DNA of 54,165 nt from a virus, in the IMG/VR virus record IMGVR_UViG_3300044846_002556, positions 1 through 54,165 of that record; one strand, written 5' to 3'. The notes beneath the pieces were generated by a model that ran no database searches, was not told the DNA's origin, and saw nothing but the letters and a program-made list of their open reading frames with translations. Below, one piece after another: positions 4,558 to 25,157 of this stretch (its first letter is position 1; each line of letters opens with the position of its first letter). A program made the position numbers and the translations under genes.

Positions 4558-4559
4558 GC

Positions 4560-10811: not shown

Positions 10812-11102
10812 TTAAAAGTTCAAGTCGATGTCTTTGAGAAGATCGTCTGCGGAAAGGATCGGGCCTTTCTGGCGTGGAGTCTTTTTGACTTTCGGTGTCG
10901 CCTCTTGCGTTGCGAACTTTTCGCGTTGTGCTCGGAGGTATTCGATGATGCGGTCGGCCTCGGCGTCTGTGATCTGCGGGGCGCGGTTCATCAGTTCTTC
11001 AAGGCTCGCGGGGGAAGCCTCTGCCAAAAGGTCCGCGCCGTCAGTTGTTGCCTTCTCCGACGAGGGCTGTGATTGAGGGGTCGAAGGGGACTGGTTTTGC
11101 AT
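10812..11102 (-). CDS. Hypothetical protein with acidic C-terminal tail (DDLLKDIDLNF)
   Basis: 96 residues. The first 35 are Ser/Pro/Gln-rich and likely disordered; residues 36-65 (EELMNRAPQITDAEADRIIEYLRAQREKF in sense) look helical; a basic stretch follows (PKVKKTPRQKG). The end, SADDLLKDIDLNF, belongs to a group of acidic, Phe-terminated tails shared by several leftward genes. GGAG lies ten bases before the ATG, and the gene overlaps the ribbon-helix-helix gene by 62 bp. Function unknown. Confidence 0.65.
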   Translation of the reverse strand: MQNQSPSTPQSQPSSEKATTDGADLLAEASPASLEELMNRAPQITDAEADRIIEYLRAQREKFATQEATPKVKKTPRQKGPILSADDLLKDIDLNF

Positions 11103-11274
11103 TTGACTTTCGCTCCAAGTGCTGAATGTAAGCGTGAATGATTAGGCGAAGGGCTTTTGACCTACCGACTGTGCGAATGCCGGGGCGGCAGAAAAGCGCG
11201 TCGATTTTTTCCAGATCCTTCGTGTAAATGTGGAAATGGATTTTCGTGGTTTCGTCATCGAGGCGCGCAGCCAT
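11041..11274 (-). CDS. Ribbon-helix-helix-like small DNA-binding protein
   Basis: 77 residues. KIHFHIYTKDLEKIDALF is a plausible RHH strand plus helix 1, and VGRSKALRLIIHAYIQHLE is a plausible helix 2, giving a MetJ/Arc-type layout. AGGAG sits nine bases upstream of the ATG. A dimeric DNA-binding regulator is inferred. It is the only small regulator of this type seen in the leftward arm, so it is a candidate reader of the palindromes at 24.1-24.3 kb. Confidence 0.6.
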   Translation of the reverse strand: MAARLDDETTKIHFHIYTKDLEKIDALFCRPGIRTVGRSKALRLIIHAYIQHLERKSNAKPVPFDPSITALVGEGNN

Positions 11275-11275
11275 T

Positions 11276-11572
11276 TTAATCGTCTCCTAAAAGGTCGGCC
11301 AAATTGTAAAGTGGGCCGTCACCTGTGGGGTTTTGTTTGAGTGCCTCGCCCTGCGGGGGCTGGGAAGTGACTTGCGGCTTGTCGGTTTTGACGATCCAGA
11401 TGTGTGTGGGTGAGGTCGGGGAACGGGAGATTTGTAGAATGTCGAGATCAGGGTCTTTGCGTTTCGCGGTGTAAAGGCGCTGCAAGGACACTTGGTAGTT
11501 GCCCAGAAGCTCCACTTCAATTCCAAACTCGGAATGGTAGGCTTCGTATAGCAACTCTGCTTCCTTGCTCAT
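11276..11572 (-). CDS. Hypothetical protein ending LADLLGDD
   Basis: 98 residues starting MSKEAELLYEAYHSEFG, with AAGAGG as ribosome site. Contains GIEVELLGNYQVSLQRLY and HIWIVKT; the C-terminal 30 residues are Pro/Gln-rich and end PLYNLADLLGDD. The tail resembles the acidic tails of neighbouring genes but lacks the final Phe. The stop is one base from the next ATG. Function unknown. Confidence 0.65.
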   Translation of the reverse strand: MSKEAELLYEAYHSEFGIEVELLGNYQVSLQRLYTAKRKDPDLDILQISRSPTSPTHIWIVKTDKPQVTSQPPQGEALKQNPTGDGPLYNLADLLGDD

Positions 11573-11594
11573 TGCGACCTCTTGCAAAAAAGAA

Positions 11595-11612
11595 GCGGGG
11601 GCAGACCCCCGC
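11595..11612 (-). terminator. Intrinsic terminator, leftward
   Basis: GCGGGGG (11595-11601) and CCCCCGC (11606-11612) form a 7-bp GC stem with a 4-base loop. On the minus strand it is followed by TTCTTTTTTG, a good U-tract. It lies after the gene at 11734-12219 and before the gene at 11276-11572, dividing the leftward transcript. Confidence 0.75.
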
Positions 11613-11690
11613 TCGCCAGTAGTTTCGAAAGACCATCTTCTGGCTGACGGTCAGCGGGGAAGGGAGGAAACGAAAACCCCGCCTTTCAAA

Positions 11691-11726
11691 CGGGCAACCC
11701 AGACCAGCAGGACGCTGGGTTGCCCG
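11691..11726 (-). terminator. 10-bp inverted repeat after a leftward gene
   Basis: CGGGCAACCC (11691-11700) and GGGTTGCCCG (11717-11726) form a perfect stem with a 16-base loop, just past the stop of the gene at 11734. It has no U-tract, so it may protect the 3' end or add to the terminator at 11595-11612. Confidence 0.5.
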
Positions 11727-11733
11727 AAGGGCA

Positions 11734-12219
11734 TTAGGCGGCCTCGTCGAACAGGTCGGACAGAAGGTCGCCCGCCATCTTGCGGCTGGACTCAATACGG
11801 CGCGCAGCCTCGTCACGGATTTCTGGTTTGTGCTGCAGCACCTTGCCGACATACTCCGCAATCTGCTCGGCAGAATAGTCGCTCGGATTTCCACCCTTGC
11901 GGCGGATAGCGGCGAAAACCTGCTCCTTGGCGATTTTGTTCGCCTCTTTCGCAATCGGGTCGGCAGACGCCTTCGGGGTGCGAACGGCAAACTCGTAAGC
12001 ATCAGCGTAGGACTGAAACTCGGCGGACGCGGCAGTTGCATCAATCTCGCCCGACTCAGCGAGGCGCTTTAGCTTGGCAATGATCGAGGTGCGAATGTTG
12101 TCCGCAAGAACGTGGTTCAGCTTCTCGGCTTCGAGCGCGGTCAGGACATGGCCTTCAGCGTAGGGCTGATCGACGGAGACGTTGACGCCGTGCGGGAGTT
12201 TAAGATCGCGTTTTGACAT
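11734..12219 (-). CDS. Hypothetical mostly helical protein ending GDLLSDLFDEAA
   Basis: 161 residues. Predominantly helical, Ala- and Glu-rich: TALEAEKLNHVLADNIRT, AKEANKIAKEQVFAAIRR, SAEQIAEYVGKVLQHKP. No catalytic motif seen. The tail (KMAGDLLSDLFDEAA) has the same acidic DLLSD core as several other leftward proteins, but does not end in Phe. Hairpins lie on both sides, so it may be expressed as its own unit. Confidence 0.65.
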   Translation of the reverse strand: MSKRDLKLPHGVNVSVDQPYAEGHVLTALEAEKLNHVLADNIRTSIIAKLKRLAESGEIDATAASAEFQSYADAYEFAVRTPKASADPIAKEANKIAKEQVFAAIRRKGGNPSDYSAEQIAEYVGKVLQHKPEIRDEAARRIESSRKMAGDLLSDLFDEAA

Positions 12220-12237
12220 ATTACTGGTTCCTTAAAA

Positions 12238-12269
12238 GGCGCTATGCGCCGATTGATGGGCGTTCGCCC
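12238..12269 (-). terminator. Two hairpins upstream of the 161-residue gene
   Basis: GGCGC and GCGCC (12238-12250, loop TAT) are followed on the minus strand by TTTT, and GGGCG and CGCCC (12258-12269) form a second short stem. They lie in the leader of the gene at 11734-12219 and so act as a terminator or attenuator of leftward transcription. The wider gap 12220-12402 holds no gene that I can support. Confidence 0.5.
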
Positions 12270-12402
12270 CTTTTGCCATTGGATAGTGCCATCACCTTTG
12301 GCCCATTGCAAATGAAAAGTCACTCGCTGGGGATAAAATGTTAGGGCCATTTGATACACCCTAGCGAGGGGTGCTAACCGTGTGCCTTGCACCCGTCAGC
12401 CA

Positions 12403-12945
12403 TTACCAACCGTTCCAGCCGCAGAGGGCTATCAGCCGTCCGGGCTTTTTGATTTTCCACTTGGGCGCAGCTTTTTGGGCCTCGGTCAAAACATTGGGCT
12501 TGGGTGCAGGACGCTTCGCGTCTGGGGGTGTGCCCATTTCCGCACGACGCTGTGCGGCCTTTGCAGCTGACGCTCTGACGGCTTTAACTTGTGCTTCGCG
12601 GCGTTGCTGCAGGCGTCTGGCTTTTTGTTCTTCTGTAAGCACAGGCTTGCGTTTGTCACGAGAAACCTTTGCGTTCGCAAGTTGGCGTTCACGAAATTCT
12701 GGGTCATTTGCGTAGCGTTCCTTCCGACGCGCTGCACGTTGTTCTTTGTTCTCACGGTTCCAGCGACGGTTTGCTTCACGGCGCTTTTCTAAACCTGCCG
12801 CTTTCTTTTCCTCACGGAGTCGCTCGAGTTCTGCCAATGTCTCAGGCGGAAGGTCGAGTCCTTTCTTGCGTAAGCGATAGCGGGCGGAGTGCAGCTTTGC
12901 GCGCTCTTTGTTTTGCTCCCGCCATGATTTTTTATCGAATGGCAT
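12403..12945 (-). CDS. Highly basic Arg/Lys-rich helical protein
   Basis: 180 residues from ATG 12945, with AAGGAG upstream. Begins MPFDKKSWREQNKERAKLHS and is dominated by Arg, Lys, Glu and Ala (REANRRWNRENKEQRAARR, KARRLQQRREAQVKAVRAS), so a long charged helix is likely. The ending (RLIALCGWNGW) is hydrophobic. It could bind nucleic acid, and resembles some phage proteins near HNH families, but no HNH site is visible. Function unknown. Confidence 0.65.
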   Translation of the reverse strand: MPFDKKSWREQNKERAKLHSARYRLRKKGLDLPPETLAELERLREEKKAAGLEKRREANRRWNRENKEQRAARRKERYANDPEFRERQLANAKVSRDKRKPVLTEEQKARRLQQRREAQVKAVRASAAKAAQRRAEMGTPPDAKRPAPKPNVLTEAQKAAPKWKIKKPGRLIALCGWNGW

Positions 12946-13108
12946 GAAACAACTCCTTCGGAACACAGGCGAAACCGATCTTGTAGCCGAGGCCACCTTG
13001 CTCGGACACAACTTTGCCTGCATTGTCACAGGCTTCTTTCGAAAGAAACTCGTGTGTCGTGATGGCGCTGCTTGTGCCAGCAAACCAGATGATTAAAACC
13101 CAGGGCAT
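12932..13108 (-). CDS. Small exported or membrane-anchored protein, 58 residues
   Basis: Begins MPWVLIIWFAGTSSAITTHEF, a signal-peptide-like start with a weak cleavage site (SSA-I). The rest (SKEACDNAGKVVSEQ, GFACVPK) has two cysteines in a pattern common to small phage proteins with one disulfide. GGAG is seven bases before the ATG, which is why this start is preferred to a longer frame. It overlaps the basic-protein gene by 14 bp. Function unknown. Confidence 0.6.
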   Translation of the reverse strand: MPWVLIIWFAGTSSAITTHEFLSKEACDNAGKVVSEQGGLGYKIGFACVPKELFHAIR

Positions 13109-13109
13109 T

Positions 13110-13283
13110 TTATTGCTCCGTCTTGCGGCCACGTTGGGCAATCGCGTATTCCACAAATGCTTCGTAAACGTAAGGGTCGAGATAAACAACATGATCTTCG
13201 TTATCTCGCGGGACGCGTAGACAGAATTGATAGCCGTCGAAAGAAACGTAAAGGCCGTCTCCGAGGTAGGTTTCTTTATCCAT
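13110..13283 (-). CDS. Conserved-type small phage protein, 57 residues
   Basis: Begins MDKETYLGDGLYVSFDGYQF and contains CLRVPRDNEDHVVYLDPYVYEAFVEYA. Proteins with the YLGDGLY, SFDG, LRxPR and VYLDP pattern are very widespread in phages and prophages. Fold and function are not known to me. GGAG is eight bases before the ATG. It overlaps the end of the coiled-coil gene by 8 bp, and one base separates its stop from the next ATG. Confidence 0.75.
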   Translation of the reverse strand: MDKETYLGDGLYVSFDGYQFCLRVPRDNEDHVVYLDPYVYEAFVEYAIAQRGRKTEQ

Positions 13284-13662
13284 GTTTATTCTCCAAAGCG
13301 GCGCGGGCGGCTTGCACTAAATTATCGTCCTCGCCGCAGTGTGCGTATTCCGCCAATTCGTCGGCCAATTCTTTAACGAGCGCTTCAAGTTCCGCGATGC
13401 GGGCTTTCAAGGCGTCAACGTCAACCGCCAGACGATGAACAGCGAGCATCTTTTCCAATTCCGCGATGCGCTGCCGCAGAGCATATTGCTCATCATACAA
13501 AGTTATCTTGTCATCTGTTTGCTTTTTGACAAAAGAAATCGCCTTATCACGCGCTTCTTCCAACTCCGCAATCCGCCGCTCCTTCGCCTCTAATGCGTCG
13601 GCGGCGGCTATCTGCCATATGTTTCCACTCTTTCTCAGATGAGCAATCAATTCGTCAGTCAT
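13276..13662 (-). CDS. Coiled-coil protein with RIAELE repeats
   Basis: 128 residues from ATG 13662. MTDELIAHLRKSG is followed by three RIAELE units (ERRIAELEEA, RQRIAELEKM, KARIAELEAL) and a helical C-terminus. It is a coiled coil. The start resembles the protein at 14224-14430 (MTDDLIKALQ, ARIAELENLL), so the two are probably paralogues, sharing short DNA repeats around 13386, 13453 and 14360. ATGA overlap with the upstream stop. Confidence 0.6.
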   Translation of the reverse strand: MTDELIAHLRKSGNIWQIAAADALEAKERRIAELEEARDKAISFVKKQTDDKITLYDEQYALRQRIAELEKMLAVHRLAVDVDALKARIAELEALVKELADELAEYAHCGEDDNLVQAARAALENKHG

Positions 13663-13817
13663 TCCTTCACCCCCAGATAAGCGGCGCTGGCGGCGCGGGC
13701 GGTGCACTTGGTGTGGTTGTCAGGGAAAGCCATTTCGTCAAACGCAGTCGTTAGGATGACGCCTATTATGCTACCTGCGATAAAGCCTATGAATATCTTA
13801 GAAAATGTCTCGCTCAT
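13659..13817 (-). CDS. Small membrane protein, 52 residues
   Basis: Begins MSETFSKIFIGFIAGSIIGVILTTAF, one membrane segment (about 8-25), then a short soluble tail DEMAFPDNHTKCTARAASAAYL. GGAG is six bases upstream. Its stop overlaps the next start (ATGA). Function unknown; topology suggests an inner-membrane anchor. Confidence 0.6.
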   Translation of the reverse strand: MSETFSKIFIGFIAGSIIGVILTTAFDEMAFPDNHTKCTARAASAAYLGVKE

Positions 13818-13843
13818 CACTTCTCTCCCGTATAAGCTGCGTG

Positions 13844-14227
13844 TTACTTTTTGAGCGATTGATACGCCCGTTTGACACGAATACGATTGATGATGTTTGC
13901 GACGGAGCCGCGAAGGATGCCAAGACGATCTGCGACCTGTTGCTGCGTTGCACCGTCGTTGACCATTCGTTCTGCGATAAGTTCGATCTCCGTGATGGGA
14001 AGCGTTTTGATCGCGTTGCACCACGCAGTTGTGTAAGTGGGGTTCTCGATGTTCGGGTCGTCATCTGGACTTTTGAATTTGTCGTAATAGTCGTTGTCGC
14101 CTCCTTCGAGGAAGCGAACGCGAGGGATTGAAAGAAGCATTTGCCGCATGGTGCTTCCCGCTTGGACGCCCTGAGACTTGAGGCCCTGCACGATTGGCAC
14201 GTAGCGGCAGACTTTCTCGATCTTCAT
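13844..14227 (-). CDS. Putative HTH transcriptional regulator
   Basis: 127 residues. The C-terminal part (IELIAERMVNDG, then TQQQVADRLGILRGSVANII, then NRIRVKRAYQ) is a helix-turn-helix of the homeodomain-like type: helix 2 TQQQVADRLG, turn IL, helix 3 RGSVANIINRI. The N-terminal half has no domain that I recognise. It starts at ATG 14227 with GGAG nine bases away and overlaps the previous stop by ATGA. A regulator of leftward genes is plausible. Confidence 0.6.
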   Translation of the reverse strand: MKIEKVCRYVPIVQGLKSQGVQAGSTMRQMLLSIPRVRFLEGGDNDYYDKFKSPDDDPNIENPTYTTAWCNAIKTLPITEIELIAERMVNDGATQQQVADRLGILRGSVANIINRIRVKRAYQSLKK

Positions 14228-14430
14228 GTTTTTTGCTCCGAAAAGTATTTTGAAGCGTGGAGGACCGGCAGAGGTTCGACGGGAATAGACTTGAGTTGGA
14301 GTGGCATTTTATCACCAAACCAATTTGCGTTTAAGCGAGCAAAAGGTTTTAGGAGATTTTCAAGTTCCGCGATGCGGGCGTCAGCTTCGCGTAATTCTTT
14401 TTGCAGGGCTTTGATTAGGTCGTCAGTCAT
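14224..14430 (-). CDS. Short coiled-coil protein, paralogue of the 13276 gene
   Basis: 68 residues. MTDDLIKALQKELREADARIAELENLL is a coiled coil (in sense: MTDDLIKALQ, then ARIAELENLL) that resembles the start of the 128-residue protein at 13276-13662. The rest (PVEPLPVLHASKYFSEQ) is unlike it. The gene is linked by ATGA overlaps to both neighbours. Function unknown. Confidence 0.55.
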   Translation of the reverse strand: MTDDLIKALQKELREADARIAELENLLKPFARLNANWFGDKMPLQLKSIPVEPLPVLHASKYFSEQKT

Positions 14431-14678
14431 TCTTCTTCTCCGAAGCCGTTTGAGGAACCTGCGAAACCACCTTCGGAATTATAATAGGTGGTATAATTCC
14501 CGATGGTGTTGGCGCTCCCCGCGTATTGACCCGATGGGCCATAGAATTGTGAATAGCCTGCGATGGTGTTTGCGGAGCCTTCAAGTTGCCCTTGGGGGCC
14601 GTAGAAGGTGGTGTAGCCGTCACAGAGGCCGATGCAAACGGCCAAGGCCGTGAGGCTCGTGGTGTAAGTGTTAAGCAT
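14427..14678 (-). CDS. Tandem-repeat small protein (Tyr-Gly-rich)
   Basis: 83 residues from ATG 14678, with AGGAG seven bases upstream. After a hydrophobic start (MLNTYTTSLTALAVCIGLC) come three repeats of about 20 residues: GYTTFYGPQGQLEGSANTIA, GYSQFYGPSGQYAGSANTIG and NYTTYYNSEGGFAGSSNGFG. The repeats suggest a small beta-solenoid or adhesive fold; the start could be a signal or anchor. It overlaps the methyltransferase end by 8 bp. Unknown function. Confidence 0.6.
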   Translation of the reverse strand: MLNTYTTSLTALAVCIGLCDGYTTFYGPQGQLEGSANTIAGYSQFYGPSGQYAGSANTIGNYTTYYNSEGGFAGSSNGFGEEE

Positions 14679-15219
14679 CGTTCGCTCCTTTGAAAGCAAT
14701 GCGGGAAGGTTTGACGGCCCGCAGAATAAATTCAATCGTATGGGGGCTATAGGTGGCTCGGATCAAATCAAAGTCCGCCTTGTAAATATGCCGAAAGTCG
14801 CTCATCGCGGTCAAGCCAATTTCGGCTGTGTATTTAGGTTGGTTCAAAAACGAAAGTGTTTCGAGTTGGATGATGCGAGTGTGCGATGGGTCGCCCCACG
14901 CCCAGACGCTATCACGGCGCGGAACGCTCGCACACAAAAATCCACCCGGCTTGAGCACTCGCCAAAAGTCTGAAAACTGCGCGAAGAAAAATTTGTAATC
15001 GCCCTGAGCCCCCGTGTGTTCGAGCACTTCATACGCATGGATTTCATCAAACGTCTCGTCCCCAAACGGTAACGGCAAGTCGAGAAGATCGTGCACAACG
15101 TCTGGGTTGTGCGATGGGTTGATGTCGAGCGTGGTCACGTTTTGGAAGGAGGTTGTGTCGTCGGGGGAGACGGCTTTGAGCCGTCTCGATCCGCAGCCGA
15201 TTAAGAGTTCGCGGAACAT
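14671..15219 (-). CDS. Class I SAM-dependent methyltransferase
   Basis: 182 residues. Motif I LIGCGSRR, acidic LDINP, then DLPLPFGDETFDEIHAYEVLEH and FWRVLKPGGFLCASVP match the Methyltransf_11 fold. Substrate is unknown; no DNA-methylase NPPY-type motif is present, so a small molecule, protein or RNA target is more likely. ATG 15219 shares its first base with the stop of the preceding gene (TAATG), so this start is preferred over longer upstream frames. Confidence 0.7.
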   Translation of the reverse strand: MFRELLIGCGSRRLKAVSPDDTTSFQNVTTLDINPSHNPDVVHDLLDLPLPFGDETFDEIHAYEVLEHTGAQGDYKFFFAQFSDFWRVLKPGGFLCASVPRRDSVWAWGDPSHTRIIQLETLSFLNQPKYTAEIGLTAMSDFRHIYKADFDLIRATYSPHTIEFILRAVKPSRIAFKGANDA

Positions 15220-15572
15220 TAGAAGTCTCCTAATAGGTCGTCGAGGTCGAGCGTTGCAGCGGGCGCTTTGACGGGTTGTGCCGCGAGCGGCACCCAGCCA
15301 AATTCCTTTTCGGCCACGCCTTCTGGATTGGTGAGCCATCGTTGCCAAAAGTCTGCAAAGTCATCGGCGCGGAGGACAAGCACTTTGCGGGTCGAGCGGT
15401 TGGGGCCGGACGAAAAGAACCCGGAGACTTCGATCTCTGTGCCGTCGCCTATGGGGCTGCAATACAGGCCGGGGATGATCGAGAGTCCGCCGGGGTTGCT
15501 TTCCGGCGCGAACGCCGGAAGCCCTGATATGCGAGGACGAGATGGGTCGAGGAAATGCAGCGGTGCAGCCAT
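15219..15572 (-). CDS. Hypothetical protein ending LDLDDLLGDF
   Basis: 117 residues from ATG 15572, coupled to the helicase stop (TGATG) with AAAGGA nine bases upstream. It contains GLSIIPGLYCSPIGDGTEIEV and a strand-rich middle, then FADFWQRWL. After a Pro/Ala linker it ends TLDLDDLLGDF, the best match to the DDLLSDF tail of the gene at 22898. It sits directly after a UvrD-like helicase, so a role in DNA metabolism is possible. No domain recognised. Confidence 0.7.
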   Translation of the reverse strand: MAAPLHFLDPSRPRISGLPAFAPESNPGGLSIIPGLYCSPIGDGTEIEVSGFFSSGPNRSTRKVLVLRADDFADFWQRWLTNPEGVAEKEFGWVPLAAQPVKAPAATLDLDDLLGDF

Positions 15573-17065
15573 CACGAAAAATCCTTTAGGTTTGCCAGAA
15601 TGAGGGTGTGCTTTGTCCGGGTTTCCAGCACGTAGCGTAAGTTGTTTTCTTGTGTGATCTCGTCGTCTTTTTTGGCCCACTTGGATGGAATGCGCCACGG
15701 GTCGAGATGGAGAACGGTGTCCCATTCGAGGCCCTTTGCCTTGTGGCCTGTGGCGAGCGTCACAAGGCCGTTGTCACGGGCGAAAAGGTTGTCGAGTTCG
15801 CCTATCAGGTCGCGCACAGTTCGGGGTTTGCGGTTTTCCACGACCGCAAGAATGCACTCGTAGCGATCCGTTACGGAGTCGATCTTAGCTGCGTCCTCAT
15901 TCACTTCGGCCTTCGAGCGTTCTGTCTCAAACCAATTCGTGAGGACAAGCTGGAAGTCGGCACAAAGCACCGTTTGGTCAGGGGAAAGTTTCTTGCAGAG
16001 GCTTGATAACCCTTTGCCGATGTCCCGTCCGAGCATGTTCACGCCCACACCTTTACGCAGCAACTTGAAGGCCATGCTTAGAAGCGGCGCGTTGTTGCGG
16101 CAGAGGATGGCAAGTTCGGTTGTGGCGTAAGGCTTTAAGGTATCAACTGTCCAAGCGTTGCCCGTTAGATCGACGATCTCGCCCATGGGGTTGCTGGGCG
16201 CAGCACGGTATTGCGGGGCGTGAACGTGCTGACGATCAACCACCCGCTGCGGGCATCTGAAAGTTGTGTTGAGCGGGAGTTCGATCCATTCCTTTTTGAG
16301 CGCCTTGAGGTTGTTCATGCTGTTATGGTCCGCGCCACGGAAAGCGTAGATCGCCTGTCGCGGATCGCCCACGACTATGAGTTTCCCTGCGGCGACCTTA
16401 CGGAGCATTTCGTGATTAAGCGGTGACAAGTCTTGGGCTTCGTCAACCAGCACAACAGGAAATCTTGGGAACGCCCCAGAAAATACAACAGGGAGATAGA
16501 TTTGGTCGTCATAGGAGATACAGCCATTGAAACCTTCCTCGATGGACGCAATCAATATGCGCCTTGCTAATTTGCGCTCGTCAGGGCTCAAGCCTGAGTC
16601 AAGTTCGTAGTCGAGTTGCTCCCATGTGGCCGGGGTGTCAGGCAGAAGGCTGCGCGCATGTTGGAATTGTGACGGCACAAGGCCGCGCTGCATCGCCATC
16701 ACGACCATGGTTTTGATCGAGGCCCACTGGTTGCGGCTTTCAGGAAATGGCTGCAAGGCTGCGGTCGTCAGTCGTCCAAGTTTGTTCGCGTCGATCAGCA
16801 TTTTCTTCTTGTTGATTGTGAAAGACCATGCGCGATGCCCGAGGCCGTTCATGGTCATGACTGTGAAGTTCTTGGGGAAGCGTTTTTCGAGTTCTTCTTT
16901 GATTTTCTTGTTGAAAGCCAAGGCTAACGCAGGTTCGGGCGGGAGGGCCTTTGCCAGCATGGTGAGGGTTGTGGTTTTGCCAGTGCCTGCGAGGGCGTTG
17001 ACGATGAGGGACTGGGGCTGCGTTGCGGCCTCGATGATAGCGGACTGTTCCGGGGTGGGTGTCAC
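15572..17065 (-). CDS. UvrD/Rep-like SF1A DNA helicase
   Basis: 497 residues. Q-motif-like start (PTPEQSAIIEA), Walker A ALAGTGKTTT (24-33), motif Ia LALAFNKK, motif II VLVDEAQDLSP, motif III VGDPRQAIYAFRGADH, motif IV LNTTFRCP, motif V ATGHKAKGLEWDTVLHL and motif VI NNLRYVLETRT are all present. It is short for UvrD (about 720 residues), with reduced 1B/2B domains, as is usual for phage forms. The start is GTG 17065, with AAAGG upstream. Role: 3'-5' unwinding in replication or recombination, inferred. Confidence 0.9.
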   Translation of the reverse strand: MTPTPEQSAIIEAATQPQSLIVNALAGTGKTTTLTMLAKALPPEPALALAFNKKIKEELEKRFPKNFTVMTMNGLGHRAWSFTINKKKMLIDANKLGRLTTAALQPFPESRNQWASIKTMVVMAMQRGLVPSQFQHARSLLPDTPATWEQLDYELDSGLSPDERKLARRILIASIEEGFNGCISYDDQIYLPVVFSGAFPRFPVVLVDEAQDLSPLNHEMLRKVAAGKLIVVGDPRQAIYAFRGADHNSMNNLKALKKEWIELPLNTTFRCPQRVVDRQHVHAPQYRAAPSNPMGEIVDLTGNAWTVDTLKPYATTELAILCRNNAPLLSMAFKLLRKGVGVNMLGRDIGKGLSSLCKKLSPDQTVLCADFQLVLTNWFETERSKAEVNEDAAKIDSVTDRYECILAVVENRKPRTVRDLIGELDNLFARDNGLVTLATGHKAKGLEWDTVLHLDPWRIPSKWAKKDDEITQENNLRYVLETRTKHTLILANLKDFS

Positions 17066-18914: not shown

Positions 18915-19289
18915 TTAGAAGTCAAAGTTGGGGTCGTCAAAGAGGGCAGCTAACTCATTCATTTGCTCCTTGGGTGGCTTGGCCGCGAAGCGCTCCTTGT
19001 CAGCGCGTTCTTTGGCGCGGGACAGCTTGTCCGCTGCGTTCGGAGCGGATTTGTTCCAAGAGTCCACGACAAACTGGATCGGCATGGACGGGCCTGCTAT
19101 GCGGTGCGGGGCGGTTGCCCCGGCCATCTCGCGCTCCCGGAGAACGCGCATCAGCGCTGCCATGCCGCCTGGTGTGGCGGGGAAGGAAAGCTCCTGCGTG
19201 TAGCCCTTGGTGGCGCGGAGCTGGAGGTAGATGAAATCGCCTTCTGAGTAGATGGCGGTGGCAGCGTGGTAAGGGGCAGTGCGGGACAT
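18915..19289 (-). CDS. Hypothetical protein ending ALFDDPNFDF
   Basis: 124 residues from ATG 19289. The N-terminal half is strand-rich (AIYSEGDFIYLQLRATKGY, QELSFPATPGGMAALMRVLR), followed by IQFVVDSWNK and a basic helical stretch (AKERADKERFAAKPPKEQ). The end (LAALFDDPNFDF) is one of the acidic Phe-terminated tails. Upstream (19320-19400) lies a promoter-like region with a GGGTCTAA element. Function unknown. Confidence 0.65.
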   Translation of the reverse strand: MSRTAPYHAATAIYSEGDFIYLQLRATKGYTQELSFPATPGGMAALMRVLREREMAGATAPHRIAGPSMPIQFVVDSWNKSAPNAADKLSRAKERADKERFAAKPPKEQMNELAALFDDPNFDF

Positions 19290-19387: not shown

Positions 19388-19443
19388 CAAAATGCCTGTC
19401 TGGGGATTTTGTGAAGGGAACAGAGCCGCAGGCGCACAGGCGC

Positions 19444-19626
19444 TTAGTGGTCGTATAGGATGGCCGAGAGAAGCCCATGGGGGCAAATCGCCCTTCGTGT
19501 TCGGTCATCCCAGACCACACAATACGAAAAGATCAGGGAGCCGTAGATCAGGCTATAGGCCACAAGTGAAAAGAAGAGCCACGAGGCGATGCCGCAGAGC
19601 ATGACCAGTATGAAAGCCACGAGCAT
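19444..19626 (-). CDS. Small membrane protein, 60 residues
   Basis: ATG 19626 with AAGGA about nine bases upstream. Residues 1-37 (MLVAFILVMLCGIASWLFF, SLVAYSLIYGSLIFSYCVVW) give two close membrane segments; the C-terminus is polar with a Cys. It is next to a region rich in promoter-like sequence. Function unknown. Confidence 0.55.
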   Translation of the reverse strand: MLVAFILVMLCGIASWLFFSLVAYSLIYGSLIFSYCVVWDDRTRRAICPHGLLSAILYDH

Positions 19627-19627
19627 G

Positions 19628-19831
19628 TCAATAATCCTTTTCCTCAAGGGGGCGGAGATGGAGTTCAACAAGGCCATCTGAAAGGCAGATGATCTGCGCC
19701 CAGAAGTTTTTGGGTTTGTGGGCGCGGATTATTTCGAAAGCCTCGTCGCAGGTTTTGCATTTGAAGATTAGCGTCTGGCGCTTGGTGTCATCGGTCACGG
19801 TAGTAGTCCTCGTCTGGATAAGTGTCCTCAT
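19628..19831 (-). CDS. Small protein with CKTC motif, 67 residues
   Basis: Starts MRTLIQTRTTTVTDDTKRQT and contains LIFKCKTCDEAFEIIRAHK, a single CxxC pair of the kind seen in small zinc ribbons, but no second pair. It overlaps the upstream gene by 44 bp in another frame, so the exact start is less certain. Function unknown. Confidence 0.5.
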   Translation of the reverse strand: MRTLIQTRTTTVTDDTKRQTLIFKCKTCDEAFEIIRAHKPKNFWAQIICLSDGLVELHLRPLEEKDY

Positions 19832-20111
19832 CTTCGCCCCACTCCCCGATGTAATCAAGGATTGCGTCGTCAACTGCGCGATGGGTTGCGAGGAGTTCGA
19901 GCAGCGCGCCAGTCGCCTTAAAGAGCGGGGCGTCCGGTTTGTCGGGGTCGTCGAGTTTGAGGTGGATCGAGTTAACTTCCCACTCCGGGTCGTCCCCCTC
20001 GTAGCAATTCTCCGGCGGGCCGTAAAGCTGCGGCTTGGTGCCGGGATGGGTGAGCGTCCAGTCGATGTCGAGGATGAAGTCGTGGCCCATGAAATAGATG
20101 CCGGTCTGCAT
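19788..20111 (-). CDS. Hypothetical acidic protein, 107 residues
   Basis: Begins MQTGIYFMGHDFILDIDWTL and contains PENCYEGDDPEWEVNSIHLKL, a strand-rich pattern found in small phage proteins whose start reads as a beta sheet. The end is very acidic (GEWGEDEDTYPDEDYYRDR in sense, shortened here). Function unknown. Confidence 0.55.
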   Translation of the reverse strand: MQTGIYFMGHDFILDIDWTLTHPGTKPQLYGPPENCYEGDDPEWEVNSIHLKLDDPDKPDAPLFKATGALLELLATHRAVDDAILDYIGEWGEDEDTYPDEDYYRDR

Positions 20112-20143
20112 GATTTTGCTCCGTGATATGAAAGGTGTGGGGA

Positions 20144-20362
20144 TTAGCGAAAGAGGATGCCTGCCGGAAAGTCCTCGTCGATTTTAAGATCGGGGCGGGA
20201 GACTCCCGCTTTATTCAAAGCATCTCGCAGTTCCTCGAAAAATTTGCGAGGAGGTGCACCTTTGTCTCCTCCGATGAGCGCACAAACGAAGCGGAGATAT
20301 TCGGCTTCTGTCTGTGTGAGGGTAAGAGTGTGAATGGTTTCTGTTTTGGAGGTGAGTTGCAT
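20144..20362 (-). CDS. Hypothetical protein, 72 residues
   Basis: Begins MQLTSKTETIHTLTLTQTEA, followed by EYLRFVCALIGGDKGAPPRK and FFEELRDALNKAGV. The start has TLTLTQTEAEYL, typical of small phage proteins with one strand and helices. No domain recognised. Confidence 0.55.
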   Translation of the reverse strand: MQLTSKTETIHTLTLTQTEAEYLRFVCALIGGDKGAPPRKFFEELRDALNKAGVSRPDLKIDEDFPAGILFR

Positions 20363-20411
20363 GTTAAGACTCCGTGTTGAAGGTTAGAACCGCAGGTGCC
20401 TGGGTCGCCTG

Positions 20412-20828
20412 TTAGGGTTGGGGCCAGACGTAGGGCAGGTCGGGGCCTTCGACCCAGTGGAATTGCTTGTAATGTTCGGGCTCCTTGCGGAGAAGGTTGG
20501 AGCGGTGAGAGGCGTGAAATTCCGCGTTGCCGAGCCATGCGGGTTTGGAGGTGAGAAGTTCGCTGGTTGAAAACGCCGCAATCTTTTCTGCGCATGTGTC
20601 GTTAAACCCGCGTCGTTTCCACTCCTCGCAAATGGCAAGGCCGTAGATGCAAAGGAGCGGGGCGTGGCCGCGCCACATTTTGACGGCGGGGTGATTGGCC
20701 CACCCATAATTCGGGACAGTCAAAGCCTTCAAGATTTGTAAGGTTTCAACTCTTTGTTTTCCTAAACGCCTATTGTCTAAACAACGGGCGCTCATAGGGA
20801 AATCTGCGTAAGGTAAGAAAGTCTGAAT
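20412..20828 (-). CDS. Pyrimidine-dimer glycosylase-like protein (ATT start proposed)
   Basis: With the proposed start the product has 138 residues. SARCLDNRRLGKQRVETLQI, NYGWANHPAVKMWRGHAPLL and CEEWKRRGF match the MSMEG_6728/Pyr_excise family related to T4 endonuclease V. Members normally begin QTFLPY, and that sequence is encoded here just upstream of the first ATG (20795), preceded by ATT at 20828-20826 rather than ATG. AGGAGG is five to six bases before the ATT. Starting at the internal ATG would delete the conserved N-terminus that carries the catalytic amino group in endonuclease V. Role: UV damage repair, inferred. Confidence 0.7.
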   Translation of the reverse strand: MQTFLPYADFPMSARCLDNRRLGKQRVETLQILKALTVPNYGWANHPAVKMWRGHAPLLCIYGLAICEEWKRRGFNDTCAEKIAAFSTSELLTSKPAWLGNAEFHASHRSNLLRKEPEHYKQFHWVEGPDLPYVWPQP

Positions 20829-20840
20829 GGCAGCCTCCTG

Positions 20841-21335
20841 TTAGGTTCGAGCAAATTCGCCAAAGTAATCTTCCGCAGCTTTTGCATAAGCAGCAGCAGC
20901 TTCTTTGGCAGTGTTGTATCGTCCAAGGTTTTTGGTTTTCCCTTGGCGGCGAATATATGCAACAAATTTCATACGAGCTTTGTCAAAGCAAACTCCTTTA
21001 ATTTTGGACTCGCTGTTATTGGCAGCAATTCGGTTGCCTTGGTTTTGAGAAAGTGTAGCCTCGCGGAGGTTGGAGATTGCGTTGTTGGTTATATTTCGGT
21101 CGATGTGGTCGATGACTCCGACAGGCCATTGGCGGTTCATGTAAAACCAAGCGAGTCTTGCGACTCTATATTCGTTTCCAGAAATTGCGATGCGGAGATA
21201 ACCGTTTTTATCCGGGCGACCTGCAGGTGTTCCGGCACAAGCATTTCTGCCTCGGTTCACTCGCCAAGTGAAAATGCCGGTGAGCGGACTGTAGTGGAGC
21301 ATATTTTGCAGCTCTTCGTGGGTTAAGCGGGCCAT
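20841..21335 (-). CDS. HNH-AP2 homing-type endonuclease
   Basis: 164 residues. LHYSPLTGIFTWRV and RVARLAWFYM are typical of this family, IDHIDRN (D76, H77) and NNAISNLREAT complete the HNH site, and residues 108-155 (GVCFDKARMKFVAYIRRQG, LGRYNTAKEAAAAYAKAA) form an AP2 DNA-binding domain. It sits 12 bp upstream of the ATT-start glycosylase gene. Mobile free-standing endonuclease, inferred. Confidence 0.9.
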   Translation of the reverse strand: MARLTHEELQNMLHYSPLTGIFTWRVNRGRNACAGTPAGRPDKNGYLRIAISGNEYRVARLAWFYMNRQWPVGVIDHIDRNITNNAISNLREATLSQNQGNRIAANNSESKIKGVCFDKARMKFVAYIRRQGKTKNLGRYNTAKEAAAAYAKAAEDYFGEFART

Positions 21336-21336
21336 G

Positions 21337-21531
21337 TCAGTCTCCTGAATAAGAGTTGCGAAGCAGCCACTGGCGTTCGGCCTCGTTGTCGAGACATTCT
21401 TGCAGATCGGAGATGAATTGCTCCAAGTCCAGCCTCTCGTCTTTTGTGATTTTGAAGTTGGGGTTTTGCAGGTTGGCGACGAGAACGCGAATGGCTGTTT
21501 GCGCGCCGTCTGGGTAAAGTTCTGCGATCAT
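21337..21531 (-). CDS. Hypothetical protein, 64 residues
   Basis: Begins MIAELYPDGAQTAIRVLVAN and contains DERLDLEQFISDLQECLDNE and RQWLLRNSYSGD; helical. It overlaps the upstream stop by 4 bp and ends one base before the HNH gene. No function known. Confidence 0.55.
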   Translation of the reverse strand: MIAELYPDGAQTAIRVLVANLQNPNFKITKDERLDLEQFISDLQECLDNEAERQWLLRNSYSGD

Positions 21532-21794
21532 TCCGAGTCCTCCGGGAAAGTTGCGTCGTTGATCAGGTGCTGGGCGATTTCGTGCCAGTTCACGTCGGAG
21601 ATGAAAGCCATGGCGTAGTCGAACGCCAGACCTTTTCCGACTTCTTCCAGATGATATTCGACGTATTCACGGCACCAATCAGCAGCCTCAGATAAAGAAG
21701 GCTTGTCTGGAAAGTCGTCGGAGAGGTCGAGTCCGTCGAAGATTTCGAGATTGATCCGCCATGTGGCGTAGTTCGTCCAGCCGTTATATGACAT
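21528..21794 (-). CDS. DUF7249-like (WTNYATW) phage protein
   Basis: 88 residues. The start (MSYNGWTNYATWRINLEIFD) carries the NGWTNYATW pattern seen in many phage proteins, followed by DWCREYVEYHLEEVG and DVNWHEIAQHLI. Family name DUF7249 is from memory. Function unknown; often found in the early region of phages. Confidence 0.65.
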   Translation of the reverse strand: MSYNGWTNYATWRINLEIFDGLDLSDDFPDKPSLSEAADWCREYVEYHLEEVGKGLAFDYAMAFISDVNWHEIAQHLINDATFPEDSE

Positions 21795-22074
21795 AGTTCG
21801 CTCCTTTCAGAATGTCTCTAAGTTCCTGCTTGATGCGCCTTGCGTGTTCTCCGCGCCATGTGGCAGCGTTTGCGAGAAAGTAGGCCACAACGCTGACGCC
21901 AGAATCGAGGCCGTAAGGCTCCGAGACTTGGTTAAGATGTCGGAGCGCGAAGATGTAGGGGACTGCGCCGAAGTAGGGTTTGGGCCAGTTGGCGCGTATG
22001 TCTGCAGCTATCACATACAAAGGTCTGTGATGCGTGTCGGCTGGAGCGCCTTCGGCGGGGGATGTCTGGGTCAT
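21784..22074 (-). CDS. Conserved-type phage protein, 96 residues
   Basis: From ATG 22074. IAADIRANWPKPYFGAVPYI, FALRHLNQVSEPYGLDSG and VAYFLANAATWRGEHARR follow a pattern shared by many phage proteins (AADIRxxW, AVPYxxAM, DSGxxxVxYFLANAxTWRG), which helps place the start. Unknown function; helical. It overlaps the next gene (21528-21794) by 11 bp. Confidence 0.65.
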   Translation of the reverse strand: MTQTSPAEGAPADTHHRPLYVIAADIRANWPKPYFGAVPYIFALRHLNQVSEPYGLDSGVSVVAYFLANAATWRGEHARRIKQELRDILKGANYVI

Positions 22075-22075
22075 G

Positions 22076-22363
22076 TCATTCGTCCGAGGTGATGGGCAGG
22101 GCGGACTGCATGGTGGCGATCCAGATGGTGAGGTCGTCGATGGCTTGAGCAGCTTGTGTGCGTTTGTATTTGGTGTTTGTGATCTCGCCCGCAGCGCGCA
22201 GCATATTGGTGATGCCCATGCCGCGAGTTGGGATGATCTGGCCGTTGGTTTTGACGTAGAGCTGCAGGGCGGAGCGCAGTGAGCGGGCGCGGAAGTATGC
22301 AACAGCGTCGGGGCCGACAAAGCTGTGGCCGGATTTGGAGAGGTGGATATATGAGTCGGTCAT
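22076..22363 (-). CDS. Hypothetical protein, 95 residues
   Basis: Begins MTDSYIHLSKSGHSFVGPDA and contains SALQLYVKTNGQIIPTRGMG and KRTQAAQAIDDLTIWIATM. Mostly helical. Function unknown. Its stop overlaps the start region of the next gene. Confidence 0.55.
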   Translation of the reverse strand: MTDSYIHLSKSGHSFVGPDAVAYFRARSLRSALQLYVKTNGQIIPTRGMGITNMLRAAGEITNTKYKRTQAAQAIDDLTIWIATMQSALPITSDE

Positions 22364-22378
22364 GGCTGGGCCTTGAGG

Positions 22379-22594
22379 TTAGTTGGAAATGGTCTGGATG
22401 ACGAAGCGGCGGTTGTCTCGCACGAGCCACTTGGTGCCACGCCAGACGTTAATGGCTGACGCGACAGGCCAAAGGGGTGTCTGGAAGCGAAAGCGTTTGC
22501 CAGCGCGGGTCTTGCCAGTGACGAGGTAGAGGTCGCCGGGGGCGGGAGTCCAAGAGACTGCGCCGTTTGGCTGGTGGGTGATGGGAGATTGCAT
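22379..22594 (-). CDS. Hypothetical protein, 71 residues
   Basis: Begins MQSPITHQPNGAVSWTPAPG and continues LYLVTGKTRAGKRFRFQT, then VASAINVWRGTKWLVRDNRR. The pattern is that of small beta-rich phage proteins, like conversion of a strand sheet followed by a basic end. No domain recognised. Confidence 0.5.
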   Translation of the reverse strand: MQSPITHQPNGAVSWTPAPGDLYLVTGKTRAGKRFRFQTPLWPVASAINVWRGTKWLVRDNRRFVIQTISN

Positions 22595-22605
22595 GGAAGG
22601 GCTCC

Positions 22606-22842
22606 TTACATGGCGGGGGTTATGAAAATGCAGATGGGATTATTGACCAAATCCAGACGTAAAAGGTCGCCCCAGTCTTGGGTGCGGTGGCGGCAGGGCG
22701 CGAGGCCCAGTGCGCGTTTGGCACGGCGGATCAGCGTCTGGGAGGTGGCGTCGGCTGGGGCGTCGATCTCGACGCGATGCACCCAGCAGTAGTTGGCTTC
22801 GCCAGCGAAAGTGTCAGTCATTTCGACAGAATAGCGGCACAT
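22606..22842 (-). CDS. Hypothetical protein, 78 residues
   Basis: ATG 22842 is preferred because GGAG is six bases upstream; an ATG twelve bases earlier has no ribosome site. The product starts MCRYSVEMTDTFAGEANYCW and contains VHRVEIDAPADATSQTLIRR and AKRALGLAPCRHRTQDWGD, close to small phage proteins with the pattern NYCWVxR. Function unknown. Confidence 0.6.
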   Translation of the reverse strand: MCRYSVEMTDTFAGEANYCWVHRVEIDAPADATSQTLIRRAKRALGLAPCRHRTQDWGDLLRLDLVNNPICIFITPAM

Positions 22843-22897
22843 TTTGGACTCCATAAGGTTAGAGGTGAGGAGATGCAGTGGCATCGCTTCGCACTGG

Positions 22898-23215
22898 TTA
22901 AAAGTCGGAGAGAAGGTCGTCGGCGTCAGCGAGTTCGACGATTTTGTTGCGTCTGACGGCGACTTTTTGCTGAGCTGCTTGCACGGCTGGGTGGTCAGCG
23001 CCCCAGACGTTTTTGAGGTTGGCGAGGTAACGCTTGTGCGCCTCTGCGAAGCCGTGGAAGTGGTCGGAGTAGCTGTTCGGCCAGAGGTTTTCGGGGAAGT
23101 CTTGGAAGAGCTTGCGGGTGGCCGCAGGCTGCGCGTCATAGAACGCGAAAAGCTGGTCTGTGCTTTTGCGGACTGTGGACTGGTGGCGATTGCGTTGGGA
23201 GTTGGTGGAAGTCAT
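22898..23215 (-). CDS. Hypothetical protein ending ADADDLLSDF
   Basis: 105 residues from ATG 23215 (AGGA nine bases upstream). STDQLFAFYDAQPAATRKLF, FPENLWPNSYSDHFHGFAEA and HKRYLANLKNVWGADHPAVQ are helical; the end, KIVELADADDLLSDF, is the clearest member of the acidic Phe-ended tail group. A promoter (23301-23329) and a 9-bp hairpin precede it, so it likely starts its own transcript. No domain recognised. Confidence 0.65.
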   Translation of the reverse strand: MTSTNSQRNRHQSTVRKSTDQLFAFYDAQPAATRKLFQDFPENLWPNSYSDHFHGFAEAHKRYLANLKNVWGADHPAVQAAQQKVAVRRNKIVELADADDLLSDF

Positions 23216-23267
23216 CTGCAAGTGTCCTGGCCTTGGAGGCTGCCGCGTTAGCGGCTCGGGGTTGCTG

Positions 23268-23299
23268 GGCAACGGGCGAAAAACAAATCACCCGTTGCC
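23268..23299 (-). promoter_or_regulatory. 9-bp inverted repeat in a leftward leader
   Basis: GGCAACGGG (23268-23276) and CCCGTTGCC (23291-23299) pair perfectly around a 14-base loop. The repeat starts next to the -10 of the promoter at 23301-23329 and would be at or near the start of the transcript. It could be a regulator site, a 5' stabilising hairpin or an attenuator. No U-tract is present. Confidence 0.45.
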
Positions 23300-23300
23300 T

Positions 23301-23329
23301 TTTATCGCAAAAGATGGGTCTAACGTCAA
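23301..23329 (-). promoter_or_regulatory. Sigma-70-like leftward promoter
   Basis: On the minus strand TTGACG (23324-23329) and GATAAA (23301-23306) are separated by exactly 17 bases. The spacer contains GTTAGACCCAT, the complement of the ATGGGTCTAAC element that recurs in this arm. It would drive the gene at 22898-23215 and genes beyond. Confidence 0.55.
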
Positions 23330-23367
23330 GACATGAAATGGTGGGCTGGTTGTGGGGCGGTCTGGTG

Positions 23368-24102
23368 TTAGAAGGGCGAGTCGTCGTCCTCGATCTCGTA
23401 GCCGAGGGCGCGAGCATCCTCTGCGGTGAGTGGGATGCTGTCGTCGGTTGGATCGTCATAGAGCGGTTTCATGTTGAATTTCACGCGCTGTGCGTTGAGT
23501 TCGATTTTGTCCTGCCCCAGTTTGGTGATGTAGCCTCTCGCCCGCATTTCATCTGTCGAGAGTTCTGCGCCTGCGGATCGGAGTGGTTTTTTGGTGGTGT
23601 AAAGTTCGAGCGGTTTTTTAAGCAGAATGTTGTGCGGCGAGGTCGGGGCGTTTTTGCCTTGCAGAGCGGATTGCTGGTCGGGGGTGGAGAGTCCGGCAGA
23701 GATTGCGCGTTCCGCGTGTTCGTAATGGAGCGCCTTATCTTCGTCCGAGATTGACATGAGGTCATCGACGCGGGAGGGCGCGTGTCCTTGTGAAAATGAA
23801 ATGCTGGAAGAAAGTCCAGCGCGGCGGCGTCTGGCGTATGCGGCTGTTCGCTGGTTTTTGCGGAAGGCGGCGCGGAAGTGCTGTTCTTCGGCCACGAGAA
23901 GGGAAAGGTCTGCTTCGGAGATGAAAGGTTGGTCTGCGAGGAATTGCAGGGATTGGAGCGCCTCGCGGAAGTCGTCGATTGTGGAGGTGGAGGTGAGGGA
24001 GGATGCGATAGTGCGGATCTCCCGTTTGAGGATGTTGGCTGTGTCGTATGTGCGGCGAAGGGCAGATAGAAGGGTTATCATGCGCTCTTGGGTTATTGCC
24101 AT
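23368..24102 (-). CDS. Hypothetical protein with SSB-like tail EIEDDDSPF
   Basis: 244 residues from ATG 24102 (AGGAG upstream). The first half is helical and Ser/Thr-rich (TLLSALRRTYDTANILKREI, RTAAYARRRRAGL); the second half includes DEMRARGYITKLGQDKIELN and AQRVKFNMKPLYDD. It ends ARALGYEIEDDDSPF, close to the DDDIPF end of bacterial SSB proteins, although no OB-fold is visible. The upstream control region makes it one of the first leftward genes. Function unknown; interaction with SSB-binding host proteins is inferred. Confidence 0.65.
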   Translation of the reverse strand: MAITQERMITLLSALRRTYDTANILKREIRTIASSLTSTSTIDDFREALQSLQFLADQPFISEADLSLLVAEEQHFRAAFRKNQRTAAYARRRRAGLSSSISFSQGHAPSRVDDLMSISDEDKALHYEHAERAISAGLSTPDQQSALQGKNAPTSPHNILLKKPLELYTTKKPLRSAGAELSTDEMRARGYITKLGQDKIELNAQRVKFNMKPLYDDPTDDSIPLTAEDARALGYEIEDDDSPF

Positions 24103-24137
24103 GGTGGGGGCTCCTTTGTAGGTAGTGAATGTTGCAT

Positions 24138-24151
24138 GGTCTATATAGACC
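24138..24151. promoter_or_regulatory. Perfect palindrome, candidate operator
   Basis: GGTCTATATAGACC is its own reverse complement. It lies 36 bp upstream of the start of the gene at 23368-24102 (minus strand), beside TATAAA (minus strand, about 24154-24159), and it is flanked by GTAGTGAAT (24122) and GTGGTGAAT (24161), a nearly exact repeat. A repressor or activator site is likely; the RHH protein at 11041 and the HTH protein at 13844 are candidate readers. Confidence 0.55.
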
Positions 24152-24209
24152 GTTTTATAGGTGGTGAATAGCACAAACCACCCTTTGTGTGCTGGATTTG
24201 GGGTTGGGT

Positions 24210-24373
24210 GGGTCTAAGGTTAAAAGGGTAGAGCAGGTGGGGGTGTAGTTGACATTCGATTTTTAAAAAAAAATATATACTTAAAGAGGGGCCTAACCCT
24301 CTGCCTTCTTAAATATATATTAGAGAGAAGGTTAGAGCCACCATATACTGGGTATCAGAGGGGTCTAAGGTTA
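24210..24373. repeat. 13-bp direct repeat GGGTCTAAGGTTA (two copies)
   Basis: Exact copies at 24210-24222 and 24361-24373. A shorter inverted relative lies at 24330-24337 (GGTTAGAG). The core GGGTCTAA also occurs at 19.38, 23.32 and 25.25 kb. They look like binding sites for one regulator. Confidence 0.6.
24249..24302 (+). promoter_or_regulatory. Candidate rightward promoter with downstream inverted repeat
   Basis: TTGACA (24249-24254) precedes an A/T-rich stretch; ATATAT or TATATA falls 18-19 bases later (24273-24279). AGAGGG (24285-24290) and CCCTCT (24297-24302) form an inverted repeat around GCCTAA immediately downstream, a natural operator position. No rightward gene follows within the gap, so the sequence may instead serve origin melting or an RNA primer. 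Confidence 0.35.
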
Positions 24374-24453
24374 GAACCATTTAAGACCATCTGGAGAGGG
24401 GAAAGGGCGGTTTGTGCTATTTGCCGCCTATGTAGTCGCCCATAAAATCCCAG

Positions 24454-24509
24454 CCATTTACCATTTGCCCAGCATCAACCATTTGCCAGCCATTTGCCCA
24501 CCATTTTCG
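24454..24509. repeat. Iteron-like CCATTTGCC cluster
   Basis: Units begin at 24454 (CCATTTACC), 24461 (CCATTTGCC), 24479 (CCATTTGCC), 24490 (CCATTTGCC) and 24501 (CCATTTTCG). The last three are spaced exactly 11 bp, one helical turn, so a protein could bind all three on the same face. They lie 130 bp from the AT-rich tract and just before the terminators, which is a typical origin or partition-site arrangement. Confidence 0.55.
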
Positions 24510-24516
24510 AGCCAAT

Positions 24517-24592
24517 AAAAAAGCCCCACGCTGGTCGGCATGGGGCGCGCAAGCGCAGGGCAATAAAAAACCCCCCAGATTGCTCCGGGGGG
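24517..24592 (-). terminator. Tandem leftward intrinsic terminators
   Basis: Terminator A: TGGGGC and GCCCCA arms (24541-24546 and 24523-24528) followed on the minus strand by TTTTTT (24517-24522). Terminator B: CCCCCC and GGGGGG arms (24571-24576 and 24587-24592), with TTTTTT at 24565-24570. Both lie just after the leftward gene at 24600-25157 and shield the iteron region from its transcription. Confidence 0.85.
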
Positions 24593-24599
24593 TTTGTGC

Positions 24600-25157
24600 T
24601 TAGAATATGTCGTCCAGACCGTCGATTGACTGCGCTGCCTTTTTCTTGCGCGCCAAAAATTCCTTTTCGACTGCGGCAGCAAACTTGTCGTTCTGCAGCG
24701 CTTTGGCGAGCATCTCGTCGAAAGCGGCCTTTTCGTCCGGCTTGCTGCGCTTTGGCAGGGCCTTGCCTTTAGCTTTGGCAATGTTGCTCAACATCTCAAT
24801 CGCCACGCCCTGACGCAGCTTGTCGTCGTCGGATAGTCTGGGGGATGAGGCGCGACCCTTTCGCGCAACGCCAGAAACAATGCTGTCAAACATTTCCTTC
24901 TGGATTGCCGCGCAAATGGCTGCGGCTGTTTCCTCATCCCGGCGCGCGTTAGGGATACCAAAACGCTGCGCCTCGTTTGCTATGTCATCATCGCTCCATG
25001 GATTAGCGCCGTTGCCCATAATACCGGCCTTCACGCCTGCTATCGAGTTCTTGATAGCAGTCGAAAAACCAAGCTGGAGCAAATGCTCCAAGCTGTTGGA
25101 CGGCAGAACACTGGAGTCGATTGAATGACCTGCGAACAAAAGATTGATAGAAACCAT
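24600..25157 (-). CDS. Hypothetical protein ending SIDGLDDIF
   Basis: 185 residues. The start (MVSINLLFAGHSIDSSVLPS) is followed by helical, charged stretches: FSTAIKNSIAGVKAGIMG, DDIANEAQRFGIPNARRDEE, AAAICAAIQKEMFDSIVSGV and a basic end (LARKKKAAQ). It ends SIDGLDDIF, an acidic Phe-terminated tail. It is the rightmost leftward gene and is bounded by two strong terminators, so it is a separate transcription unit. Function unknown; location next to the proposed origin is suggestive. Confidence 0.7.
   Translation of the reverse strand: MVSINLLFAGHSIDSSVLPSNSLEHLLQLGFSTAIKNSIAGVKAGIMGNGANPWSDDDIANEAQRFGIPNARRDEETAAAICAAIQKEMFDSIVSGVARKGRASSPRLSDDDKLRQGVAIEMLSNIAKAKGKALPKRSKPDEKAAFDEMLAKALQNDKFAAAVEKEFLARKKKAAQSIDGLDDIF

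Follow-up and report, generated by a model that had tools for sequence, protein, structure and literature searches.

The virus record IMGVR_UViG_3300044846_002556 from IMG/VR, a stretch of 54,165 bases that is called here the window in its full length, consists of a leftward replication and early arm (about 1.3–25.2 kb) and a rightward structural arm. Several unrelated proteins of the early arm end in a short acidic peptide with hydrophobic positions. Judging from the sequences of the window and of related phages, these tails are real and are shared by more proteins than chance would explain. They belong to genes of the early arm, are preserved as peptides, and within one phage they change in step. 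The explanation that we favor as the probable one is a genome-specific docking tag, read by one common, co-evolving and probably phage-encoded partner. The core of the tag may be written roughly as hydrophobic-x-hydrophobic-[DES]-[DE]-[LI]-[LGD]-x-hydrophobic; it would form the end of a linker that is flexible and often basic, and selection would keep it on several otherwise unrelated early proteins.

Eight such C-termini had been listed in an earlier examination of the window, made without database searches (the sequence-only reading), and all eight read exactly so in the sequence. Their stop codons are all retained by an independent codon-based gene caller, which places the start further in than the longest open reading frame for the genes at 15219–15572, 18915–19289, 22898–23215 and 23368–24102. 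All eight genes are on the minus strand. F1 (10812–11102) is a small protein made of a helical segment, a basic linker and the tag SADDLLKDIDLNF, and represents the most widespread tagged family. F2 (11276–11572) ends in YNLADLLGDD, while in F3 (11734–12219), a protein of a β-hairpin and five helices, the last helix ends with the tag MAGDLLSDLFDEAA. The remaining tags are LDLDDLLGDF in F4 (15219–15572), ALFDDPNFDF in F5 (18915–19289), LADADDLLSDF in F6 (22898–23215), EIEDDDSPF in F7 (23368–24102) and SIDGLDDIF in F8 (24600–25157). The tail of F7 is the one most similar to the C-terminal peptide of bacterial single-strand DNA-binding protein (SSB-Ct).

A strict criterion was applied to these ends, requiring a terminal Phe, at least two acidic residues among the last seven and no Lys or Arg among the last five. 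It is satisfied by 6 of the 47 leftward proteins, as compared to a mean of 0.23 for shuffled proteins (maximum 3 in 200) and 0.25 for random internal ends (maximum 2), which is the enrichment that the sequence-only reading had proposed to look for. None of the 33 proteins of the rightward, structural arm satisfies it, again as had been stated. The tailed genes had also been described as unrelated to each other, and this holds for seven families but not for the genes at 11734 and 24600: with the last 16 residues removed, F3 and F8 are distant homologs (hhalign probability 100%), while all other family pairs score at most 1%. The window thus has seven independent tagged families, not eight. Pfam and PHROG searches with the eight tailed proteins gave no match. 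F3 is the best modeled of them (AlphaFold mean pLDDT 93) and has 117 homologs; the search for its fold in the PDB and among viral models gave no significant match, and among GTDB genomes 21 pattern matches contained no relative.

A near-identity DNA search among phages found no match to the window. Related loci were collected through searches with the helicase and polymerase (61 loci) and through alignments of F3 and the helicase (about 95 more), and the shared-tail survey was extended to about 65 deduplicated loci. The anchor in this search was the UvrD-type helicase encoded next to F4 (15572–17065, minus strand), itself untagged. The tails are conserved in relatives, with a spelling specific to each genome. 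The near clade retains all the tails with minor differences: SADDLLKDIDLNF or SADELLKDIDLNF in F1, LDLDDLLGDF or LDLNDLLGDF in F4, and DDPNFDF or NDPNFEF in F5. The terminal Phe is local to this close clade, and what persists beyond it is the acidic-hydrophobic core. In the clade of genomes G004 and G005, where the polymerases are 83–85% identical, F1 and F4 have changed together, to LSVDELLSGLD and LDFDELLEGLE, respectively. In G012, F1 ends in DDSVTLEDLGL and F5 in DDSITLEDLGL, and the latter sequence also ends the protein encoded next to the helicase, which corresponds to F4 by position only. In G009–G011 the ends SDIGL, ADIGL or TDIGL are found on F1, on F4 and on a zinc-ribbon-like protein. 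Caulobacter phage Kuura, in which gp36 and gp51 are tailed, has LNIDDLFSE in F1 and LSIDDLLSTL as a second tail, and Manatee phage has DELLAGLE and DALLAGLE.

More distant loci repeat the pattern with other spellings, such as LSLDDLGL/VNLDDLGL/LGLEDLGL (L120), GLNIAIDI/GLNIELDI (L157), LDLGDFKL/LDLGGFKL (L160) and DMELDL, present twice (L170). In the Manatee-Spring polymerase group the pairs are EDFMRSL/KDFMRNL (L339), LKDSLRGL/LKASLRGL (L318) and IDYLPKGFI/IDYLPKGFV (L341). In those complete genomes that were inspected, the tagged genes are on the early strand.

The families differ in how far they carry the tag. F1 has 90 members across about 74 genomes, with genome-specific tags, and the tails of F6 relatives include ITADDLSDLF, LNDLDDFDF, TIDDLADLF and LTIDDLDL. 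F7 relatives end in DDELF, DDEGVF or ADDGLF, and the homolog in G011, TITLESIGLDVSGDEA, follows the tag of its own genome. F2 is tailed only in the close clade of the window; elsewhere the family stops at LWIVK and is untagged. The small protein F9 (11041–11274, minus strand), a putative ribbon-helix-helix DNA binder by eye with no match in a Pfam search, has a degenerate tag in the window (SITALVGEGNN) but is tagged in many relatives, for example as IKVEVEL in L157 and GELDL in L141.

Concerted change was assessed by permutation of cross-family tail similarity within and between genomes, with near-duplicates thinned; the test uses no tree. The tails of F1 and F5 score 18.6 within genomes as compared to 12.9 between them (n=18, p=2e-4), and those of F1 and F4 score 25.7 as compared to 16.4 (n=14, p=2e-4). 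F4 and F5 (p=0.002) and F1 and F3 (p=4e-4) likewise change in concert. The C-ends of most control proteins do not co-vary with F1 (PDDEXK nuclease family 0.68, AAA 0.91, polymerase 0.49, F2 0.33, SSB 0.08). In the window the AAA gene is at 8517 and the PD-(D/E)XK gene at 9639.

The sharing is also visible within single genomes. The F1 tail matches other C-ends of its own genome in 2.5% of comparisons (60/2400) and C-ends of other genomes in 0.65%. Counting the C-end pairs that score at least 22 per genome proved too loose to be told from shuffles, and top-pair scores compared with those of internal ends took its place. The best non-paralogous C-end pair scores at least 28 in 24 of 64 loci, whereas internal ends reach this score in 2 of 64 (Fisher 5e-7); a score of at least 32 is reached in 15 of 64 loci and by no internal ends. 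A few of the 24 positive loci, for example L178 and L199, clearly represent something other than the tag. The three identical or near-identical tails of G012 differ in their synonymous codons, which indicates selection on the peptide and not recent copying of DNA.

Conserved replication proteins were screened for internal or own-genome tags, and only the ribbon-helix-helix-like family F9 gave a convincing excess (p=4e-4). Nothing clear was seen in SSB, AAA, PDDEXK, helicase or F2. The excesses in the polymerase (p=0.011) and the methyltransferase (p=0.036) are not believed, the positions being scattered inside folded domains. The DNA methyltransferase of the window (6496–7947) has a fused N-terminal ParB domain, and the linker holds a tag-like internal stretch, PLDDLLNATTAPE.

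That a single receptor binds all tagged proteins of a phage is very likely, since unrelated tails would change their spelling in concert only if they met the same co-evolving pocket. This receptor is likely, though with less assurance, to be encoded by the phage itself, because the spelling diverges fast between phages while genuine SSB-Ct ends keep DDxIPF. A tag of this kind would concentrate small early factors, namely predicted DNA binders, zinc-ribbon proteins and orphans, at the replication machinery.

Several observations weigh against a docking tag with one receptor. Two of the controls, F1 with the methyltransferase (p=0.02) and with the helicase (p=0.013), are mildly non-null, so that shared ancestry could supply part of the covariation. 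In 40 of the 64 loci no C-end pair reaches the score cut-off, and the eight tails of the window differ among themselves more than those of G012 do. In G010_40489, G011_50839 and F3 of Kuura a few more residues follow the tag before the protein ends. Partial Mantel tests did not find the receptor and did not single out one protein consistently, a first run pointing to PDDEXK (0.02) and F3 (0.03) and another to F3 (0.01) and the methyltransferase (0.046); covariation with the tag gave no signal for the polymerase (partial 0.04, p=0.32) and was negative for SSB and AAA. Finally, SSB and helicase, the two tailed proteins of T7, have no such tails here: the proteins at 8026, 15572 and 1308 are untagged.

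The receptor may be located in the replisome, and our tentative first choice, made by analogy with T7, is the family-A DNA polymerase. In the window this enzyme (2520–4001, minus strand; PF00476, E=7.6e-35) lacks an exonuclease domain. It is preferred because T7 and all the tagged groups share a family-A polymerase. The tags would dock on it as the acidic, aromatic-ended tails of the SSB gp2.5 (EADEDGDF) and the primase-helicase gp4 (WSNDTDF) do on the T7 polymerase gp5. On this family-A polymerase the gp4 tails bind to positive patches (PMC8472574), and strand displacement with T7 polymerase is reported to require the C-terminal Phe of gp2.5 (Ghosh 2009, cited in PMC9917605). The phages described here share with T7 the encoding of such a polymerase and the presence of acidic, hydrophobic-ended C-tails on at least two unrelated early proteins per phage. 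They differ in the number of tagged families, at least seven and for the most part small orphans, and in that the tag is less purely acidic than the aromatic-ended T7 tails, often ends in GL or DL, and varies between genomes in concert. The frequency of shared ends in other phages, which the sequence-only reading had asked about, is low in the T7 group: among 29 deduplicated T7-like loci only two matches were found, both of gp2.5 with gp4 (EEEDDF~HEEDDY in L213 and GGDYDF~WEDTDF in L257). In L213 the two genes lie at 4967–5665 and 7386–8912, and the T7 tail pair may itself co-vary.

Two other partner candidates are the OB-fold phage single-strand DNA-binding protein (8026–8463, minus strand) and the DUF3987 protein of the replication block (1308–2498, minus strand). 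The model of the former is a confident OB fold (pLDDT 93.5), the closest solved structure is the plasmid ssDNA-binding protein PrgE, and PHROG 378 SSB was assigned in 14 of its 46 homologs.

The replication gene of the window is split, with uracil-DNA glycosylase and 3'-5' exonuclease (4782–5837) apart from the polymerase within 2520–5837, and an HNH endonuclease gene (3988–4446) located between them. Glycosylase, exonuclease and polymerase form a single protein of 779 residues in the Manatee Spring phage (L104). The 778-residue polymerase of G017 (L095:2690–5023) contains an in-frame interruption of ~280 residues after about residue 304, resembling an intein or similar insertion. Another HNH endonuclease of the early arm (20841–21335) has an AP2 domain.

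Among the other explanations, a common host receptor outside the SSB partners, such as RNA polymerase, the sliding clamp or a protease adaptor, with the spelling tracking the host, survives best but is unlikely. Concerted change alone would fit a phage receptor and equally a host receptor altered by host switching, and takeover of the host is a typical role of small early proteins. However, the polymerases of the window clade and of G004/G005 are ~85% identical and the tags are already spelled differently; the host is known for Kuura only. Sliding-clamp motifs (QLxLF or QxxLxL) need a Gln, which is missing at that position in the tails, and ssrA-like degrons end in AA, an end mostly missing from the tags; both candidates were rejected.

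The sequence-only reading had compared the tails to SSB-Ct (DDDIPF) as a dock for host SSB-binding factors, and simple mimicry of the host SSB, by which the tails would bind RecQ, PriA, ExoI, RecO, chi and similar partners, fits poorly and is quite improbable. The tails are acidic and often Phe-terminated, with EDDDSPF of F7 and LDDIF of F8 close to DDDIPF, and like SSB-Ct they are short acidic-hydrophobic C-ends on a disordered linker that would recruit partners. The group does use the SSB-Ct route, as some proteins of related phages that are not SSBs have genuine DDEIPF, NDEIPF or DDDIPF ends (L126:3796–4221, L134:5373–5816, L154:5593–5871, L195:12207–13445 and L196:11601–11948); the first of these proteins contains a HIRAN domain (Pfam E=2e-6). 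But the terminal Phe is essential to SSB-Ct recognition, and in most relatives it is lost, with GL, GLD, GLE, DL, DI, DD or DEAA in its place or with additional residues behind the core. None of the tags has the DDxIPF-type Pro-Phe end, EDDDSPF being the nearest, and the sequence is not conserved across phages, a pattern that would not be expected from a host target conserved among bacteria. The ssDNA-binding protein at 8026 is tailless, as had been noted, and so are its homologs in all relatives listed. SSB-Ct allows one protein to recruit many, while the tag is on many proteins with presumably one receptor. Moreover, DDxIPF stays constant beside a varying tag in the same genomes (L126, L134, L195, L196); F1 and F4 of L126 end in MTIEDLGL and LTIEDLGL. 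This suggests two separate codes, the constant SSB-Ct ends fitting a conserved host target and the varying tag a co-evolving phage target. What stands of the earlier proposal is a shared tag on early proteins, absent from structural ones, with a probable common partner; the host SSB-binding factors are not supported as that partner.

A head-packaging signal, by which tagged proteins would be loaded into the prohead and then injected, is very improbable: encapsulins, shells with the HK97 capsid fold, do load cargo via short C-terminal peptides, but the tagged genes are in the early arm, many next to replication genes, and the Phe-ended tail is on none of the 33 late-arm proteins, where a capsid-targeting peptide would be carried. 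Least probable of all is the absence of function, with convergent acidic ends or low-complexity bias and common descent; phage proteins often end in acidic residues, and in several genomes a count by the loose motif gives a weak signal, but cross-family covariation, near-identical tails of 8–11 residues with different codons and the 24 loci versus 2 oppose it.

The docking tag has partial parallels elsewhere. The acidic C-terminal domain of T4 gp32 is also a protein-interaction tail on a phage replication protein, although it is a longer domain on a single protein. In encapsulin cargo peptides and clamp-binding motifs, unrelated proteins share a short peptide that is read by one hub, as proposed here, but the tag shows neither capsid-linked expression nor the QLxLF signature. 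A literature search, which covered few subscription journals, found no description of a genome-specific tag common to many unrelated phage proteins. Docking by short acidic tails is already known; the number of tagged families, their concerted divergence and their coexistence with SSB-Ct ends are new.

Small early phage proteins are the largest gene class without function. A genome-specific tag would allow such orphan genes to be grouped by tail instead of homology, and the tag peptide would serve as one bait for the common partner, which could be tested in the cultured podophage Kuura (PMC9959647). It would also widen the two-protein docking principle of T7 to a whole protein set and reveal a fast-evolving peptide-receptor pair inside the replisome. 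In a broader form, which we put forward with reserve, the tags may constitute a phage-private addressing code. The receptor, encoded by the phage, would recognize a C-terminal address specific to the lineage and bring many structurally unrelated early proteins together in one complex. Address and receptor would co-evolve fast, making the codes of related phages (DDLLxDF, LSDIGL, TLEDLGL, DFMRSL, DYLPKGF) mutually incompatible, and if this is true, private codes would also stop coinfecting phages from sharing parts.

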